Of a stretch of DNA of 64,000 bases, positions 2,112-25,230 are shown one piece after another. Source of the DNA: Hydra vulgaris (Eukaryota > Cnidaria > Hydrozoa > Anthoathecata > Hydridae). Below the pieces are notes generated by a model. The model saw only the letters and a program-made list of their open reading frames with translations. It searched no databases and had not been told where the DNA came from. Position numbers and translations under genes: made by a program. Position 1 is the first letter of the stretch; each line of letters starts with the position of its first letter. The stretch spans positions 39,167,501-39,231,500 of the forward strand of contig NC_088929.1 in assembly GCF_038396675.1 (NCBI RefSeq). The letters run 5' to 3'.

Positions 2112-2735
<624 letters not shown>

Positions 2736-2779
2736 AAACGCATACTGAAACATATGGAAACTGAAACAATCGGAAATAT

Positions 2780-2825
2780 ACGGAAAAAAACACATACTGA
2801 AACTTTTTAGTCCCTGTGTAATAAG
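2780..2825 (+). other. Spliced leader sequence (Hydra SL-A type) at the 5' end of a LINE
   Basis: Forty-six bases beginning ACGGAAAAAAACACATACTG and ending in CCCTGTGTAATAAG match the 46-nt Hydra SL-A leader as I remember it. A functional SL RNA gene would have a GT splice donor directly after AATAAG; here the next bases are ATAACTAATT, so this is not an SL RNA gene. About 88 bp further on an ATG opens LINE ORF1. The simplest reading is that a trans-spliced LINE RNA was reverse-transcribed with its leader attached. A partial echo (CGCATACTGAAAC, GGAAACTGAAAC) lies just upstream at 2739-2766. Confidence 0.8.
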
Positions 2826-2913
2826 ATAACTAATTAAACTAAATAATTCTCGACCAGAAGGTAATCCACTGTATTACGGTAATTGCCCTCTTTCCTTAAA
2901 TCAAGTAATATCA

Positions 2914-3850
2914 ATGGATGATCCAATCTTTTTGCTATCAAACTGGCCTAGTCTAGGCCAGGGTAATTATACAACATCAACAAGACAGCACCATGACTGG
3001 TTTAAATCTCTAGCAACATCAATCAAGTTGTTACAGGAACAGCATATCACCATATCAAACCGAGAAAGATTTTTGACTCGATCAGAAAAAAAACCAGACA
3101 ATATACCAACTTACGACTAAAATAGATGACCTGGAGAAGGAAGTACTTAGAACAAAAAAATTAAATACTTTAACAACCAATTCTAACCTTTCAAATAAAC
3201 AACCACTATCCACATTTGCATCGTTATTCAGTAAAAAAAAAAGCGAGGAAGAGTTAATCATGATCACTAAGATAAGGCAGGAGTTGGATGAGAGCAAGCG
3301 TATTGAAAAAAAATTTTTAATAAGCAATATTGAACCATCTCAGGGATATGAGGTTGAAATTAAGGATAAAGATGATGAGTTAGTAAGAGAAATCATATCT
3401 GTACTACAAGTAAATGAAGAAACAACGCCAAAATCATTTAGATTAAAGTCTGGGACAGAAAGAAAGACAACTAAAATGATTTTAGTTGAACTGAAAAGTA
3501 AAGAATTAGTCAATTTAGCACTAGCCAATGCATGCAAACTGAGACATAACGAAAAATTCAAAAGTATTTATGTTAACCCTGATAAAACTAGTGTTCAGCG
3601 AGTAATTGAGAAGAGACAGCGAGAAAGAAGAGATGAGCTAAATGCAAACTTGAAACACCAGGATAGCATGGGTATGCGTTGTGATGTTAACCATGGAAAA
3701 AAGTCTTTCTATGTCGCAAGAAATGGAGTTTTGAAAAAAATAACAGTAGAGCTTTCAGAGTTTGAAACTGACTACTTTTTACAAAAAGGTCTACAAGTAC
3801 TTCAACCTGTGCAACACCAGAACCATCAAGATAGTATGCAGAGTTATTAG
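2914..3850 (+). pseudogene. LINE ORF1-like protein, frameshifted
   Basis: The ATG at 2914 follows a short leader region and starts MDDPIFLLSNWPS; this frame stops at 3120. A second frame picks up at about 3121 (KIDDLEKEVLRTKKL, coiled-coil-like) and continues to 3850. It contains an acidic stretch, then a region with MILVELKSKELVNLALANA and YVNPDKTSVQR followed by a basic stretch, a layout resembling RNA-binding ORF1 proteins of CR1-like LINEs. It would act as a nucleic-acid chaperone coating LINE RNA. No zinc knuckle is visible. The assignment depends on position before the endonuclease/RT region more than on sequence identity. Confidence 0.6.
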
Positions 3851-3989
3851 CAATTAATGAACAACTTAGTGTTTAGTACTAAGCATGTCCAGCCAACTAT
3901 CTGTAACAAAAACGCTATCTCCATAACCATCAACAAAAATCTAGTAATAGTAGTAATTATACAGCTTTAAACAAATCACATGTTTCTGT

Positions 3990-4861
3990 ACAAATGCATC
4001 ATCGCTTTGTAATAAAATGGACATTCTTGCTACAACTGTCACAACATTAAATTCCCCAATGATAGTGGCAATCACAGAAACTTGGTTCAGTGATTACTCC
4101 AGCTTCCAATTACTAAATTATAATCTTTTTAAGAACAACAGACCTGATTCATATGGTGGCGTTACAATTTATATACTACACTTTATATACTACACAGTTA
4201 CAAAATAAACAAGCATCCTACTTTAATGTAATTGAGCTTCATAGTAAAATGTCAGGGCAGGTATGGTGTATAATATTTCACAAAAGTAAAAAGTTCCTTT
4301 TTGGATGTATTTATCGAGAGCCAACTCAACAGAACAATCAATTGTAGCCTAATTTCTGCTGGAAATATAGCAAAAAAAAAAGCTATGGAGTTACAAATAA
4401 TTGGTAATTTCAATCACCCTGAAATACAGTAGACAGCAGCTGGTGGCAGCACAAAGAAAAATGCAACAATGTCGAGCATTGACTTTTTGAATCTGTCAAC
4501 TCTGCAGCTCTTGCACAGCATGTCATGAAACCTACTTTTGGCAATAATACTCTTGACCTTGTGCTAACTAACTGCCCTCTCCAGAATTATAGAACTCAAT
4601 ATTGGTTCATCTCTTGGCATCTCAATCAAAAATAATTTCCATTGCACTCTTATATGGAGTTTCTTGTTTGAACCATCAATCTCACCAACCAGGGTGTTAT
4701 TACTAACTAAACCAAACTATGGTAGAGGCGACTATAAAAACCTAAACAAATTTTTTGCAGATGCAGAATGGAGGAAACAACTTGAAAAGTTCAAAAACAA
4801 TCCCATTATGATAAACCAACTCATTCAAAACCAACTGAGTTTCGATACAAAGAAGGATTAG
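3990..4861 (+). pseudogene. LINE endonuclease domain, degenerate
   Basis: Fragments of an exonuclease-endonuclease-phosphatase (APE-like) domain appear in shifting frames. The frame from 4017 reads PMIVAITETWFSD, containing the conserved ETW motif; near 4400 a frame reads IIGDFNHPEIQ, matching the GDFN motif; the frame from 4664 resembles the linker toward RT. Such domains nick target DNA to prime reverse transcription. In-frame stops and frameshifts show it is dead. Confidence 0.65.
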
Positions 4862-5230: not shown

Positions 5231-5417
5231 TGCTTGGCCTATTTCTATCTTGGCCTATTTGGCCTATTCTATATTGTATATGTGCTTGGCCTATTCTATA
5301 TTGTGCCTATATTTGGCCTATTCTATATTGTATATTGTGCTTGGCCTATTCTATATTGTATATGTGCTTGGCCTATTCTATATTGGCCTATCTCAACGGT
5401 TTAGCTTGGCCTATTTC
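5231..5417 (+). repeat. Minisatellite expansion inside RT coding sequence
   Basis: Imperfect units built on TTGGCCTATTCTATATTG recur about eight times. Related RTs have a single Trp-Pro-Ile-Ser segment here, so the array looks like a local expansion of GCTTGGCCTATTTCT. It stays free of stops in two frames and changes the frame across its length. Confidence 0.85.
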
Positions 5418-5629
5418 TCTTCTGATAGTTTTATCATTTGAAACAGGTTTAATACCTTATAATTGGAAAGAAGCAAATGTGATACCAATATATAAAGAAA
5501 AAGGTAAACAAAACGACCAGTCTGAATATAGACCAATATCTTTAACAGCCATAATATGTAAAATCATGGAGAGGTTGTTGAAAAAACATATGATGAGTCA
5601 CCTGGTTCAGCACAAGTTAATCACTAAGC

Positions 5630-5637
5630 ATCAACAT
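5630..5637. repeat. 8-bp target-site duplication, left copy
   Basis: ATCAACAT lies directly before the left terminal inverted repeat and is repeated exactly at 9335-9342. Eight bases is the duplication length of hAT elements. Confidence 0.9.
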
Positions 5638-5793
5638 TAGGGTGTCCCACTTTTAAACTGACCAAAATATTTTTGTTAGCACTCATTCTTAATCATCATC
5701 ATTAGGTCCCAGGACCCACCAAAAAAATTTTAGACTTCTAAGTACATTGATTCAGGTAGAAGCAGGTTTCATATGAGAGGTTGCGTGATTATT
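5638..5793 (+). repeat. Left terminal inverted repeat of the hAT-like element
   Basis: About 156 bp, ending GAGGTTGCGTGATTATT, mirrored at 9179-9334 with scattered substitutions such as GGTCCCAGGACCCACC against GGCCCCAGGACTTACC. Confidence 0.9.
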
Positions 5794-6147
5794 CATAAAT
5801 TTTACAGAATTTTTTTAATTTTTAGACATTTTTGGTCTAAAAAAATATTTCAAAACATCAAATGGAGAAAATAATATTATGTTCTAAACTATAATGTAAT
5901 TTTAATGCATTTAAATGACCTTAAACATGTTTTTTTTAATAAAATTTTAATTTTTAGGCCTGTTGAAAACAAAAAAATACCAATACTCATTATAAAATTG
6001 TATCCTATCATATTAAATATTAAAACATCTGCAATTTTACTAATTCATATGTTTTTTTTTATTTTATTTTTTATTTGATGTGACTTGATTGATTTCTATT
6101 ACATTTGATTTTTCAGAAATATCTAAATTAAAAAAAATATATAATGG

Positions 6148-9035
6148 ATGATAATGGATGATGATGGAACCCTCCGCAGATCCTCTTGGACCAGAAGAGG
6201 TCAGAGTGCAGCAAGAGAGAGAACTGAGGAGAGTTCCAAAGAGCCTTCCTTATGCCAAAGTCCTTCTTCTTTGAGAAATACCTCTCCTAGAACAAGCAGG
6301 GACCATCAGCCAGGATCCTCATGTACATCCCAAAGCAGAAGTCCAGCTCCTCAGCGAACCAACAGGAGTAGAAGAACACTCTACTTGCTTCAGCAACTCC
6401 TTCATATGTTTGCACCAAACAGGTTATATTTTTTATTTACTTTTAAAAAGTATTAGAAAAAGCTGAGTAAAATTGTTTATCAAAAATATGTAGTATGTAG
6501 AAAAACAATGTAAACCTACTTTTAATTTTTTTAGACTACCCACAATGGGAGAAGTTTGTCGTCAAATATATTGGCTAAGATCAAAGAAAAATAAATAAAA
6601 CTTATCCTGTGCACAAATGTCAAGGTCAAGATTTATGGTTTGCAGTGAAGGGGAGTGTGAAATTAAAAACAGAGGGGAATTCACTGGTGTATGTATACTC
6701 AGAGAACTGTTAAATCTTTGGGACAGGGGTGGTTTTGATTCAAAATTTCGGTTAACAGAGCAAGTAGTCAAGGAAAAGCTTGTACAATCTTATGATCGCT
6801 ACCAGAAACTATGCAAAGTTAGAACCCTTTATGAAAATAGAGAGAAACAGGAGCAATTAAATAAAAAAAAACAGGATTTTGTAAATGAGGCAAACTGTAC
6901 ATTTCAAGTTTATAAAACAGATATCTTATATCTGATCAAAAATGATGAAAATAGAGACAAAGATGCAAAAAGAGAGGACATTGAGTTCCTGAAGAAAGCA
7001 TTTAGAGGTGAAATGGTAAATTTTGACAACAGTAAAGACAAATCTTATCATGACAGAATTAAAGATGGAGAAAAAAGAATGTTTGATATGGTAGAGAGAA
7101 TGCATAGAGAAGATGAACGGGAAAAAGAGAGACAGGAAAGGTCAAAGAAGAAAACAATAGAGGAAAAGGAAAGAATGAAAAATTTTGAGACGGAAGTATC
7201 ATTTTCATCAAGTGGAACAAGTGCAACTGATAATGATAGTGATTTTGAGCCTTCACCAAAAAAACAGAAGATTAGTAAAGATAGAGTTTGCCTGCAGCTT
7301 TCAATGAATGACATTCTTGACAAATGGGTTCCATTCTTGACCAGGTATAAGGTAAGCGTTAGAGCAGAAACCTCACTCCTGGCCCCACTTTTCAGTATCG
7401 CTGGTGTTGATCTCAATACAGTTCCTGTATCAAAGAGTGGTCTGCATAGAAACAGAAAGATTGTTATTGAAAATGAAGCAGAAATGGTCAGAGAAGAAAA
7501 TCTAGACAAAGTGCGAGATTTAAAGGTTGTCCTTCACTTTGATACAAAACTTGTCAAGCATTATAGAACTGAAAAAAAAATGTCTGAAACTGTAGAAAGG
7601 CTAGCTCTTAGTCTTTCATCACCCCAGGTCAATGAACCCCTAGATTTCTTGCTCGGAGTTTTTAAATTGAGTCATCTAAAGGACAGGATCAAGCTATTGC
7701 TATTCAGAACATTTTAGAATACTATGAGCTCACTGACAAAATCATTGTAGTGCAGATACAACTGCCTCTAACACTGGAAAGTACAATGGGGCTATAAAGT
7801 TCCTGGTGGATTATGTGCCTCAACGACCAGTGCTTTGGCTCCTCTGTAGGTACTAAAATATTTATAAAAATTATTTATTTTGTCACATACATTTACATTG
7901 TACAGTGTACAGTTTTTCATATTTAAATTTTTTCAGGCACCACATATCTGAAAGGCACATATCACATGCAATGGATTATATTCAAGGAACAACAAAATCG
8001 CCGTCAAGAGCAATATATAAAGATTTCCAAAATAACTGGCGAGAAATACAAGAAGGAGCTAAAAATATGGATCAATTGCTTTTTTTTAACTATGACAGAG
8101 ATGAGTTTAAAGTAGGTACTACTTTTCATACAAGATGATAGATACTAAGAATTTTTGTGAAACAGCCTTGAAAAAAGATTGTTTTCAAAGAGGAGACTAT
8201 AAAGCTCTATGTGAACTACTGGTCATTTACCTTGGGGGCCATGTACCTGGTTTCCAATTCAAGCAACCAGGTGCACATCATCATGCCAGATTCATGGCTG
8301 ACTGCCTATACTTGCTTACCATGCAGCTGACTTCGAAGATAAATTCAAAATTGAATAAAAGTGAGAAAGATATGTTGCAAATTTCAACTGACTTTATTGT
8401 CACATTTTATGGATCATACTTCCTGAAGTCTCCTATTGCAACCCAGGCACCATCAAATGATTTGGATGCTTTCAAACTGCCTTTAGAAATGATGTCAAAT
8501 AAGCTATATAAATCCAAGTATGGTCCCCTGGCAAAAAAAATTCCATTCAAGCCTGGTTCATCATAGTTGGTACCTGACCCCTTAGTTGGTTATTCTTTCA
8601 ATAGCAAATGGTGATCTAGATTCAAAGGAAAGAGCTGAAATAGCTCTAAAGCTGATAAGCTTTGATCCTCCATCACATGATGAGTTCAGTACAGAACAAC
8701 CAGATTCACCAACACATATACTTCCCATGTCAGTTTTGTCTGATTTTGTTACAGAGGATTCCTGGCTGATATTTACTTACTTAGGTATTTCTAGAGAAAT
8801 GATAAAAACATGGATAGATAATAACTTTAATGTTTCAAATGTTTCATATACAAATTTTCAAAATCAAGTAGCAAACCTTGCAGTGGTCAATGATAGGGCT
8901 GAGCGCCACATTCGACTTGTACAAGGTTTTGTGGCTCAAACCCATGATGAAGGATTACTACAAGACACAATGCAAGTTGTAACTAAAAACAGAAAAGAAG
9001 TTGGAAAAGATATGAAAAAAACTGATTTTATGTGA
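6148..9035 (+). pseudogene. hAT-like transposase gene, multi-exon, frameshifted
   Basis: Probable exon 1 (6148-6422, Ser/Arg/Pro-rich) ends CAG/GTTATA; acceptor TTTTTTTAG at 6533-6534. The main exon has an open frame 6617-7717 with a Lys/Glu-rich coiled-coil segment, then VVLHFDTK, whose Asp (7541-7543) fits the first catalytic residue. After frameshifts near 7670 and 7745 the second Asp lies in ADTTASNTG (7755-7757). A short intron (7850-7936, AG/GTACTA ... TTTTTCAG/G) splits the codon after Cys; splicing gives LCRHHIS, a CxxH motif typical of hAT folds. Further blocks are FKQPGAHHHARFMAD (about 8260) and VVNDRAERHIRLV, whose Glu (8901-8903) may be the third catalytic residue. Other breaks fall near 8110-8134 and 8566-8580. 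Confidence 0.75.
7850..7936 (+). other. Spliceosomal intron splitting the transposase CxxH motif
   Basis: The 87-bp intron begins GTACTA after TGTAG and ends TTTTTTCAG before GCACCACAT. Joining the exons gives Leu-Cys-Arg-His-His-Ile-Ser in frame, the block expected in this transposase family. Confidence 0.8.
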
Positions 9036-9178
9036 TTTTTTAAAGATTTTGACCTTTTTATTGTTGCTATTTTGTGATAAATACTCATTTGTGATTTTTT
9101 AAAAAGCTAAAAATTAAGGAAATATTTTTTTTAGATAAAAATGTTTGAAAAATAAAGATGTTTGCGATATCTTTTTCA

Positions 9179-9334
9179 ATAATCACGCAACCTCTCATAT
9201 GAAACCTGCTTCTACCTGAACCCATGTACTTAGAAGTCTAAAAATTTTTTTGGTAAGTCCTGGGGCCTAATGATGATGATTAAGAATGAGTGCTAATGAA
9301 AATATTTTAGTCAGTTTAAAAGTGGGACACCCTA
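9179..9334 (-). repeat. Right terminal inverted repeat of the hAT-like element
   Basis: Reverse complement of 5638-5793 with a few mismatches, ending at GGGACACCCTA next to the duplicated ATCAACAT. Confidence 0.9.
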
Positions 9335-9342
9335 ATCAACAT
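9335..9342. repeat. 8-bp target-site duplication, right copy
   Basis: ATCAACAT, identical to 5630-5637. The RT sequence resumes directly afterwards. Confidence 0.9.
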
Positions 9343-10556
9343 GGCTTCGTAAGACAAAAATCATGTGTTACAAATTTATTAGAGATAATAGACATTACAT
9401 CAGAGGCACTTTAATCTGTAACCGTTACGCAATCATAATCTATCTGGATTTTGCTAAAGTCTTTGATGAAGTCTGTCATTAAGCATTAGTTATCAAATTA
9501 GAGGCTTATGGTTTCAAAGGTAAACTACTTAAATGGCTAAAAGTATTTCTTATGGACAGAAAACAAAGAGTTCTTGTTGACGAAAACAACTCTGAGTGGA
9601 TAAAAGTTCAGAGTGATGTGCTACAAGGATCTGTTCTAGGTCCTCTATTGTCTATAATGTACATAAATGACGTGCCTGATGTTGCTAAATGCTCACTCAA
9701 GCTCTTTGCTGATGACAGCAAACTAATAGATATAATAAAAAATCAATTTGACATTGAGCAGCTGTAGACAGATCTTGATGCTGTTGCGAAATAGGCAGAT
9801 AACTGGAAAACGGAATTTAATGCAAGCAAATGCAAAGTATTGACGATAAAAAAATCGTCCAAAAAAATTATCTATGACCACAAATTTAGCATACAAAATC
9901 AAGATAACAGCCGAACATACTTTTTGTCTACCAACCAAGAGCGAGATCTTGGAATTTTAATAACTAGCAATCTAAAATGGTCAGCTCAATCAAAACAGGT
10001 AGCAGTTAAAGCTAATGCAGCACTAGCTTCACTCAAGCGTAGATTTAGATACTGGAACCCTTCAGTGTTTAAAACGCGTTATACCACATTTGTGAGACCT
10101 CACCTTGACTATGGAAAGCCTGCATGGGCTCCACTTAACAAAGTCGATGAAAAAGTTATTGAACGAGTACAAAGAAGAGCCACTAAATTATGTCATTCAT
10201 TAAGGGGAAAAAAATATGAAGATCGACTAGCCCTACTCAATATCCAATCAATCAAAGCGCGTAGCACACGGGTAGATGCAATTCAGTATTTTAAGGAAAG
10301 CACTGGCCTTAATACTACATCCTGGATCCACCCTCCAAAAAAGTCCCAATCCGGCAATTGTCCTGGGCCAGCAGGTGCAGTTAGAAGAAATAAGGAACGA
10401 CTAACCAAACAGCTCACAAATAACTGTCGTCAAAGAGAATACTTTTTCCGAAATAGAGTGGTTAATATTTGGAACACACTTCCGGATGAAGTCAAAAATT
10501 CCAAAACTACTAATTCGTTTAAAAATATTTATGATGCCTATATGAAAACAATATGA
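9343..10556 (+). pseudogene. LINE reverse transcriptase, C-terminal half
   Basis: Reading resumes HGFVRQKSCVTNLLE, then YLDFAKVFDE (first catalytic Asp region), LQGSVLGPLL and YINDV, and LFADDSK near 9701-9721, so the FADD box is intact. Single stops (near 9411, 9481, 9765, 9793) break the frame. The frame 9840-10556 carries the thumb and C-terminal region: ERDLGILITSNLKW, YTTFVRPHLDYG, ERVQRRATKL, YEDRLALLNIQSI, and VVNIWNTLPDEV near the end. It is the continuation of the RT at 4960-5637. Confidence 0.9.
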
Positions 10557-10625
10557 AACTTACATACAGTTCAGCTGTCATAGTTGACCATATTCATTTG
10601 GTCTGCTCCGCTTTGTGCCTCAATC

Positions 10626-10748
<123 letters not shown>

Positions 10749-13689: not shown

Positions 13690-15290
13690 ATTCCTTTAAC
13701 TTAATTCCTGAAGATATTCATTATGATGATGTTCTTGAAAGGCTTAAAAATCTTGATCAAAACAAAGCATATGGAGTTGACAAATTACATCCATATATCT
13801 TAAAAAACTGTGCTACTTCCTTTCACACTAATTTTTATGGAGTCAATAGAAAAAAGTCAACTACCAAATCAATTTAGTTCAGCAAATATAACTGCACTAT
13901 ATAAAAAAGGTGACAAAACTGATTCTGGGAATTATAGACCTATATCACTTCCTTGTATTAGTTTTAAAATACTTCAAAGAATAATAAAAAACAAGTTAGA
14001 AAAATATCTTCACGAAAATAATATTATAGCTAATGAACAGCACGGGTTTGTTAAAAACAGGTCATGCACGACCAATTTACTTGAAACTCTAGATTATATT
14101 ACAAGAAACGTTGATCAAGGAATTCCTGTTGATGTAGTTTTACTTGATTTTGCAAAAGCATTTGATACTGTTCCACATCAAAGGCTTATCTCGAAACTTA
14201 AAGCATATGGTATTAATGGCCTGGCACTTAATTGGTTTCAAGCTTTCCTGTCTAATAGAAGGCAGAGAGTCGTTATGGGAGATTATGTTTCAACTTGGGC
14301 CGAGGTGTACAGTGGAGTTCCTCAAGGCTCAGTATTGGGTCCACTACTGTTTATACTCTATATAAATGATCTTCCTGAGTCTCTAAAAAATACTTCAAAA
14401 TTGTATGCTGGTGACACCAAAATCATGTCAATTAGTTCTTCTGATGAGTTACATAATAAACTTCAATGCGATTTGAACTCTGCATATGCTTGGACACAAG
14501 ACTGGTTACTTAATTTTAATATTGAAAAGTGTTTAGTTATGCACTATGGCTTTAAAAATAAACGATATCCATTTTATATAAATAGTTGTAAACTCAATAC
14601 ATCGGATTCTGAAAGAGACCTAGGAGTGATTTTTTTAGATAACTTGAAATGGAAAAATCAGGTATTATCGAGTGCAAGCAAAGCAAATCGCATGCTGGGC
14701 ATTATAAAGAAATCGTTTGTTCAATTTGATGCAGAACTGCTAAAATCTCTTTATCTTACTTTCATCCGACCACTTCTTGAGTTTGCTGTACCCGTATGGG
14801 CTCCTTATCAAAAACAAGATATTGTCATTTTAGAAAAAGTACAACGTCGTGCCACTAAATTAATACCTCAAATCAGTAAATTATGCTATGAAGATCGACT
14901 AGCTTGTCTTAGAATGCCCTCACTTTTTAAAGAAAGACAACGAGGGGACATAATACAACTGTATAAAATTTTCAATGGTTACGATAAAATTGAATTTACA
15001 GAAAATCATTCCTTTAAATCAAATTGTACTCGTGGCCATATCCTAAAATATTCAAAAGACTTTTCGAAACATAAATATAGAGAAAACATTTTACTTAATC
15101 GAGCTGCAAATTACTGGAATGCACTGCCAGAAACTGTTGTCAAAGCTACTTCAATAAATTCATTTAAAGCAAGACTTGATCGATGGGAGTCAAACCATCA
15201 CGAGACTCAGCTGTCAAAGTGTGTATAAAATCACACTCACTGGTAGCAATACCAGTCACAGCAGAAACTAATACTAATACTAATACTATT
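13690..15290 (+). mobile_element. 5'-truncated LINE with a long open RT frame
   Basis: Coding similarity begins near 13707 (PEDIHYDDVLERLKNLDQNK) and shifts frame near 13815. The main frame to 15228 spans about 470 residues: GNYRPISLPCISFKILQR, EQHGFVKNRSCTTNLLE, LLDFAKAFDTVPHQRL, SGVPQGSVLGPLLFILYIND, KLYAGDTK, and the C-terminal AANYWNALPETVV. The catalytic box is YAGD instead of Y/FADD, so one of the paired catalytic aspartates is changed to Gly. The 3' tail is a short (ACTAAT)n-like repeat at 15270-15288. Confidence 0.9.

Positions 15291-23129: not shown

Positions 23130-25230
<2,101 letters not shown>

Follow-up and report, generated by a model that had tools for sequence, protein, structure and literature searches.

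Spliced leaders at the 5′ ends of a group of LINE retrotransposons in Hydra vulgaris

How does a LINE retrotransposon come to begin with a complete spliced leader of its host? The question is raised by a copy near the start of a stretch of 64,000 nucleotides from Hydra vulgaris (G000:C10:39167501-39231500, from a genome of 911.5 Mb in 15 contigs), called here the window. A preliminary description of the window, made from its letters alone, proposed that the transcript of this LINE had been trans-spliced and then reverse-transcribed together with the leader, and that this might be general. The observation itself is confirmed and proves to be general. The proposal gains support from copies chosen without reference to the leader, from the presence of several leader types on one LINE body and from stacked leader relicts. 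Judging from these sequences, LINEs of this group are very likely trans-spliced by the host and copied back into DNA together with the leader, which, once integrated, would provide the acceptor for the next round.

The leader in the window and the LINE behind it

Positions 2780..2825 of the window (+ strand) read ACGGAAAAAAACACATACTGAAACTTTTTAGTCCCTGTGTAATAAG. A base-by-base comparison gives 46/46 identity with Hydra vulgaris SL-B1, the reference being the SL-B1 letters printed in upper case in Table 1 of PMC7986045 (SLFinder row), and the SL-B1 primer of PMC3273482 agrees with the same bases. The preliminary description was right that these are a Hydra leader from end to end but misnamed it SL-A, a name that fails on alignment with published leaders: SL-A has 24 nt, and 2780-2825 is a copy of the SL-B1 exon. 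The number of 46-nt SL-B1 matches expected in the window from its base composition is about 10^-21, and the 33-nt 3′ part of SL-B1 occurs there a single time, even with up to 3 mismatches allowed.

The leader stops at its exon boundary. There is no splice donor, since ATAACTAATT, which lacks GT, comes directly after that boundary; nor does an Sm-like site ([AG]ATTTT[CG][AG]) lie within 135 nt 3′ of the leader. The absence of both rules out an SL RNA gene at 2780-2825, bearing out what had been argued from the missing donor. What is found is a complete genomic SL-B1 copy standing as the 5′ end of a LINE copy, an arrangement that other copies share. Within the leader lies TTTTTAG (2804..2810, +), a predicted splice acceptor; the B1 relicts of other copies (see below) begin after its AG.

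The LINE continues on the + strand. Its 5′UTR (2826..2913) contains a copy of a conserved motif at about 2858-2891, and the ATG at 2914 stands 88 bases 3′ of the leader end, exactly the gap first described. ORF1 (2914..3850) has a frame change near 3080, the open parts being 2914-3117 and 3077-3847, and a relative (P0001) is 83% identical to the region 3260-3847. Behind it come pieces of ORF2 in broken frames (3957..4861, +) that are endonuclease-like by their motifs; none of them matched any Pfam model. The reverse transcriptase (RT) is split by a nested inverted-repeat DNA transposon that is not part of the LINE (5637..9335, no strand assigned; inverted repeats of 85 bp or more at its ends, flanked by TCAACA on each side), whose 366-aa ORF matched nothing in Pfam. 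The first part of the RT lies at 5410..5637 (+), and the second, with the C-terminal part, at 9337..10556 (+). With the window's other LINE RT (13810-15228) as tblastn query, alignments are obtained on both sides of the insert, with E values of 4.5e-11 and 2e-67, respectively. The Pfam model RVT_1 gives 0.011 and 6.2e-05, under the curated cut-off in both cases, and the second part has homologs besides. The tblastn alignments are the better evidence for the RT assignment, and by them an RT follows ORF1 in the order of a LINE. Thus, of the statement that endonuclease and RT follow in order, the RT and the order stand, and the endonuclease is a label given by motifs.

The 3′ end of the LINE, whose exact position is not fixed, and a (TA)n tract behind it occupy 10557..10745 (+). 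The copy is disrupted by frame changes, stops and the nested insert, and as part of the account favored here the region from 2780 to about 10630 is best explained as one dead copy of a CR1-like LINE group. CR1-like here means similarity only; named homologs of the LINE RT are mostly bird proteins. Rfam found no match in the window, and the leader patterns and ORF1 had no matches in separate collections of viral contigs and genome contigs. A protein in a MAG named Rickettsiales (P0002) is 81% identical to the LINE ORF1 over 72% of the query and is probably host DNA placed in a bacterial bin. Elsewhere in the window, ORFs at 23964-25107 carry Kazal and ShK domains and probably belong to a host gene.

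Leader-headed copies in the genome

A search with the leader plus 55 bases of the 5′UTR gave at least 41 matches of 83-100% identity, none of which begins later than within query bases 1-8 (40 of 581 candidates were scored). As sole evidence this search is biased, because the query itself holds the leader. Two sets of copies were consequently chosen by sequence outside the leader. Set A consists of 26 matches of a body-only query (2826-3120) that reach its first three bases; 40 of 51 candidates were scored, and the 41 rows divide into set A, 12 late-starting matches used as a control, and the window and two others, which were omitted. Set B consists of exact matches of the 5′UTR motif. If up to 2 mismatches are allowed, the motif is found at 335 places in the genome; 84 of the matches are exact, in 80 places, of which 71 were scored and 9 more were known beforehand to bear exact SL-B1. 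A leader was called when the score exceeded the best of 97 reversed-sequence controls.

By this measure a leader stands at the 5′ end of 22/26 copies in set A and of 63/71 scored copies in set B, or 72/80 when the nine exact SL-B1 places are added, which answers the question posed at the outset, how many copies of this LINE start with an SL. Leaders above the control are lacking in 12/97 scored copies. Among those 12, four (L087, L091, L146, L147) show other leader-like ends, and since scoring used the earliest motif match, the upstream sequence amounts to just 34 nt for L162, one of the 12, and to 97 nt for L140. L146 and L147 lie 1.1 kb from each other, oppositely oriented, and have in common a non-leader upstream sequence, which ends in a leader-like remnant just before the LINE UTR. 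In the control of 12 matches that begin late in the query, one was masked and 8/11 readable loci had no leader (one of these, L181, has a diverged UTR); the 3 with a leader are those in which the UTR had diverged or been shortened.

Approaching from the leader's side, 338 genomic matches with up to 2 mismatches were obtained for the 3′ part of SL-B1 (33 bases), and 0 for its reversed control. Behind the dispersed leaders the LINE 5′UTR is the usual sequence. Classification of 49 distinct SL loci found the LINE 5′UTR motif at 29, SL RNA genes at 11 and something else at 9; without the 8 loci that came from the leader-plus-UTR query, the figures are 21, 11 and 9. (Matches less than 120 bases from the start of a locus or less than 200 from its end were skipped, among others those in L061, L065, L066, L070, L071, L076 and L077.) ORF1 and/or RT of the LINE kind lie downstream of exact SL-B1 in 15/17 loci, and RT in 13/17, counting 20 loci minus 3 that are SL RNA genes. 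As to the 5′UTR motif itself, it is strongly conserved and forms a predicted hairpin, with covariation nearly absent (one pair), according to a prediction from 24 of 28 relatives (L006, L050, L059 and L064 were left out).

The sequence upstream of the leaders is rich in TA. The window copy sits in (TA)n, and the (TA)n-rich tract at 2500..2735 (no strand assigned) is its probable insertion target, by its sequence and by the (TA) enrichment upstream of leader-headed copies generally: pure (TA) of at least 20 bp occurs within 60 nt upstream in 30/72 such copies, versus 25/1276 window positions. Insertion therefore appears to prefer (TA)n. Flank duplications adjoining the leader are clear in 2/17 related loci (L040, L056), both TA-rich; of the remaining 15, four score above shuffles, with TA-rich flanks, ten do not, and one gave no result.

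Between the tract and the leader of the window copy, 2736..2779 (+) contains an echo of the leader that matches leader positions 9-24 at 15/16 bases, a score reached by 10/2000 shuffles and 4/11576 window 44-mers. The echo had been noticed before and tentatively ascribed to template jumping. It is real in the window copy, but as a general source of upstream echoes template jumping is rejected: scores above the control occur in 2/63 copies, and what is found in one of the two is in fact a second, nearly complete leader. Template jumping is retained as possible for the window copy alone.

Relicts, stacks and the exchange of leaders

Three types of leader recur in these copies: B1, T2 (ACGGAAAAAAACACAAAAAACTAACAGTTCTATTTGTGTTAATAAG) and T3 (ACGGAAAAAAACACATCTAAACTTTTTACAGTATTTGTGTTAATAAG), T2 and T3 being labels coined in this analysis. 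Each has two AGs and no more, an internal one and one at the end, spaced 15, 19 and 16 nt apart, respectively. In 23/83 copies a complete new leader is followed by a truncated older one, which starts after the older leader's internal AG, so that the length of the relict equals the spacing of the two AGs (15, 19 or 16 nt). The register is strict: within a range of -6..+6 the best offset is 0 in 23/23 cases; the reversed control gives no relict. The same 23/83 copies are thus leader-relict retrocopies in the manner of those known for DinoSL, and there are exceptions: scars off the internal AG occur in L053, where the remnant is 10 nt long (GTGTAATAAG), and in L169, where it is 8 nt long (ATAATAAG), and L052 has a misfitting AAG between its two relicts. 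The window copy has no relict behind its leader.

The combinations encountered are B1 on B1, T2 on B1, T3 on B1, B1 on T3, T2 on T3, T2 on T2, T3 on T3 on B1, and T3 on a TGC type, whose relict (in L051, L056, L074 and L137) matches none of the leaders identified here. B1 followed by a B1 relict has 36 genomic matches, a few of them in the same locus, and its control 0. Some copies are stacked more deeply. L200 (C8:13374850) reads leader, leader, relict, relict and then UTR, in L157 and L175 a leader stands behind another of a different type, both of them whole or almost so, and L125 is stacked as well. Whole leaders in tandem point to parent transcripts that, in some cases, started above the integrated leader.

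The relicts bear on the rival account that comes closest to surviving, in which leaderless masters with their own promoter and outron give rise to leader-headed copies as one-step products that never move again. Such dead-end copies would also be expected to share a single junction and to carry random leader types, and 62/85 leader-headed copies do lack a relict. Nevertheless, a relict requires a template that already bore a leader, and so leader-headed copies do move again; with relicts in 23/83 copies and 36 matches of B1 plus its own relict, dead-end copies are rejected as the sole account. The stacks in L200, L125, L157 and L175 stand against it too, as does the upstream sequence: a blastn comparison of 94 sampled upstream pieces, judged by eye, turned up duplicates (two pairs), TA-rich tracts and fragments of leaders, and no common promoter-like sequence was found among them. 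I consider the dead-end account improbable.

The histories of leader and LINE body can be compared directly. One UTR subfamily of 18 copies includes 8 with B1, 4 with T2, 2 with T3 and 4 with leader and relict. All three leader types thus occur on the same 5′UTR, joined at the same base in 17/18 copies, which bears on the question, raised beforehand, whether one acceptor position is used. Relatedness was tested with 81 of the 97 copies (those whose leader starts by base 15 and reaches its end), and the pairs were formed from set B copies with at least 20 nt of UTR. Among pairs with UTRs at least 85% alike, 64/210 share their leader type, as compared to a mean of 68.6 after permutation (p of at least the observed number, 0.83). 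From these comparisons, leader type is independent of LINE relatedness. Leaders of the same type (bases 15 to end) are on average 92.7% alike, and likewise where the UTRs are less than 60% alike; where the UTRs are at least 85% alike, they are 95.7% alike.

It could be argued that the LINE captured a leader once, in the distant past, and has passed it on as its 5′ end ever since. Most sampled 5′-complete copies do bear a leader, and leaders of one type resemble each other a little more when the copies are closely related, both as a single capture would have it; the suggestion made in advance, that the 46 bp might simply be the LINE's own 5′ end, is correct to that extent. But leader type is not inherited with the body (unless leaders were swapped by recombination), same-type leaders stay alike while UTRs diverge, and relicts of other types lie behind the leaders. 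Since type is not inherited with the body, the leader is not simply the LINE's own sequence, and since the two histories are largely separate, the leader has been renewed. A single capture is rejected on the independence of leader type from UTR relatedness, and I give it very little probability.

Genuine SL RNA genes lie elsewhere. On C1, at about 60.53-60.56 Mb, lies an array with a repeat unit of about 1.43 kb that also includes 5S rRNA genes. In it GTAGGCATC and AATTTTGA come after the leader, and its members are SL-B1 RNA genes, with donor and Sm-like site; in three SL-bearing loci Rfam recognized 5S rRNA and nothing else. T2 is likewise an SL RNA exon, found in a tandem array on C7 (about 21.1 Mb) with the donor GTATGCTTC and with GATTTTCG. 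It is present in 2 of three members examined (in one with one A fewer), and the third has another 5′ half. Copies of T3 with GT exist, and among the loci examined no gene combines complete T3 with an Sm-like site. With donors and Sm-like sites in separate arrays and neither at the window leader, the possibility that related sequences might reveal an SL RNA gene did not materialize. That an SL RNA gene or pseudogene came by chance to stand before a LINE, or that the assembly made it so, is the least credible explanation of all, practically negligible: Hydra does have many such genes and pseudogenes (in this genome and PMC7346339), but the match stops where the exon does, neither a donor nor an Sm-like site follows, and the same arrangement recurs on many contigs.

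Other repeats carry leaders too. In L193, L198 and L205, and in L189, L195, L197, L203 and L206, a leader or its 3′ end is followed by bases like GTATGCTTC or GTATGCACC, resembling the start of an SL RNA intron, and then by a common non-SL sequence; these are perhaps chimeric retroposons headed by SL RNA. In L065, L067 and L075 a second repeated body, unlike the LINE 5′UTR and beginning TATTTATATAATTAATAA, stands directly behind SL-B1, with ATGGATGCAATTAAAGACTCC seen in it at L067 and L075. ACT or CACT precedes the leader in L003, L008, L044, L058, L064 and L073, as in the flanks of SL-B1 RNA genes, and the starts of SL RNA perhaps vary by a few bases.

A proposed cycle and its parallels

If host trans-splicing and reverse transcription of the leader are put together, the following cycle is the likeliest. 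When a leader-headed copy is transcribed, the host spliceosome would add a new leader. Use of the terminal AG of the integrated leader would replace the old leader without trace, possibly with a change of type. Use of the internal AG (TTTTTAG in B1, AACAG in T2, TTACAG in T3) would leave a relict of 15-19 nt behind the new leader, and use of an AG at or above the start of the leader would leave two whole leaders in tandem. The RT of the element itself would then copy the RNA all the way through the leader at the 5′ end, and insertion would often be into (TA)n. In the RNA the leader presumably aids capping or translation. Of these steps the DNA itself displays the outcome: leaders as 5′ ends, leader types that differ on one body, relicts in register, and stacks; acceptor use is read from such scars.

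Going further, and here I would put the chances at somewhat below even, the leader may act as a mobile 5′ module, providing cap and translation context in RNA and two splice acceptors in DNA. A copy so equipped would need no outron of its own and could make use of whatever transcription arrives from upstream, perhaps with help from (TA)n targets, which are TATA-like. If that is true, the stacks give a readable minimum count of retrotransposition generations.

On the proposed cycle, host trans-splicing belongs to the life cycle of a retrotransposon in an animal, and the DNA keeps a record of generations, one relict for one round. It also becomes directly testable how transcription of LINEs is kept up although they have their 5′ end replaced. 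The cycle may also explain part of the SL loci in Hydra surveys that lack a donor or have transcripts matching past the leader (PMC7346339, PMC7986045). In the relevant portion of the SLFinder study, 239 Hydra SL loci are given, many of them doubtful, with transcripts that match beyond the leader, and TEs are named as a possible reason (PMC7346339). No paper was found, in the literature searched, that gives the sequence letters of T2, T3 or the TGC type.

The RNA side of the cycle has been seen in Hydra. According to the main text of PMC12220107, SLs are present in 30.9% and 29.7% of TE Iso-Seq reads in two haplotypes, as compared to 48.1% of non-TE reads. That figure, about 30% of TE reads, concerns the same phenomenon from the side of the transcripts; leaders in genomic copies are not reported in the main-text places consulted (PMC12220107).

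Two known kinds of LINE resemble the Hydra group in part. CR1-type LINEs have the same order, ORF1 then RT, but the 5′ end of the Hydra group comes from a host leader. The trypanosomatid LINEs with the Pr77 promoter also live in hosts that trans-splice; in the account of them drawn on here, however, the transcripts driven by Pr77, which lies at the 5′ end, are unspliced (PMC8190864).

Retroelements with genomic SL are described in Schistosoma mansoni, where six TEs have it and the authors suggest that trans-spliced elements were reverse-transcribed (PMC5832876). The difference is one of extent: the elements are six, the authors caution that assembly chimeras may be involved, and those parts of the paper that treat the elements mention neither relicts nor exchange of leaders (PMC5832876).

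The closest parallel is provided by dinoflagellates. Slamovits and Keeling are said to have described, in 2008, dinoflagellate retrogenes with DinoSL relicts. As set out in passages of PMC6050394, PMC12014239 and PMC3942190, the process is the same, in that trans-spliced mRNA is reverse-transcribed with its leader and relicts behind a new leader record repeated rounds. In dinoflagellates, however, host genes are retroposed by an RT from elsewhere, whereas in Hydra, an animal, it is the retrotransposon that carries a leader and renews it, and several leader types take part. No report of a leader-headed, leader-swapping LINE cycle turned up in the literature searched. Reverse-transcribed trans-spliced RNA with relicts is accordingly known already, from dinoflagellate retrogenes, and it is the LINE group using the leader as a self-renewing 5′ end in an animal that looks new within that literature.
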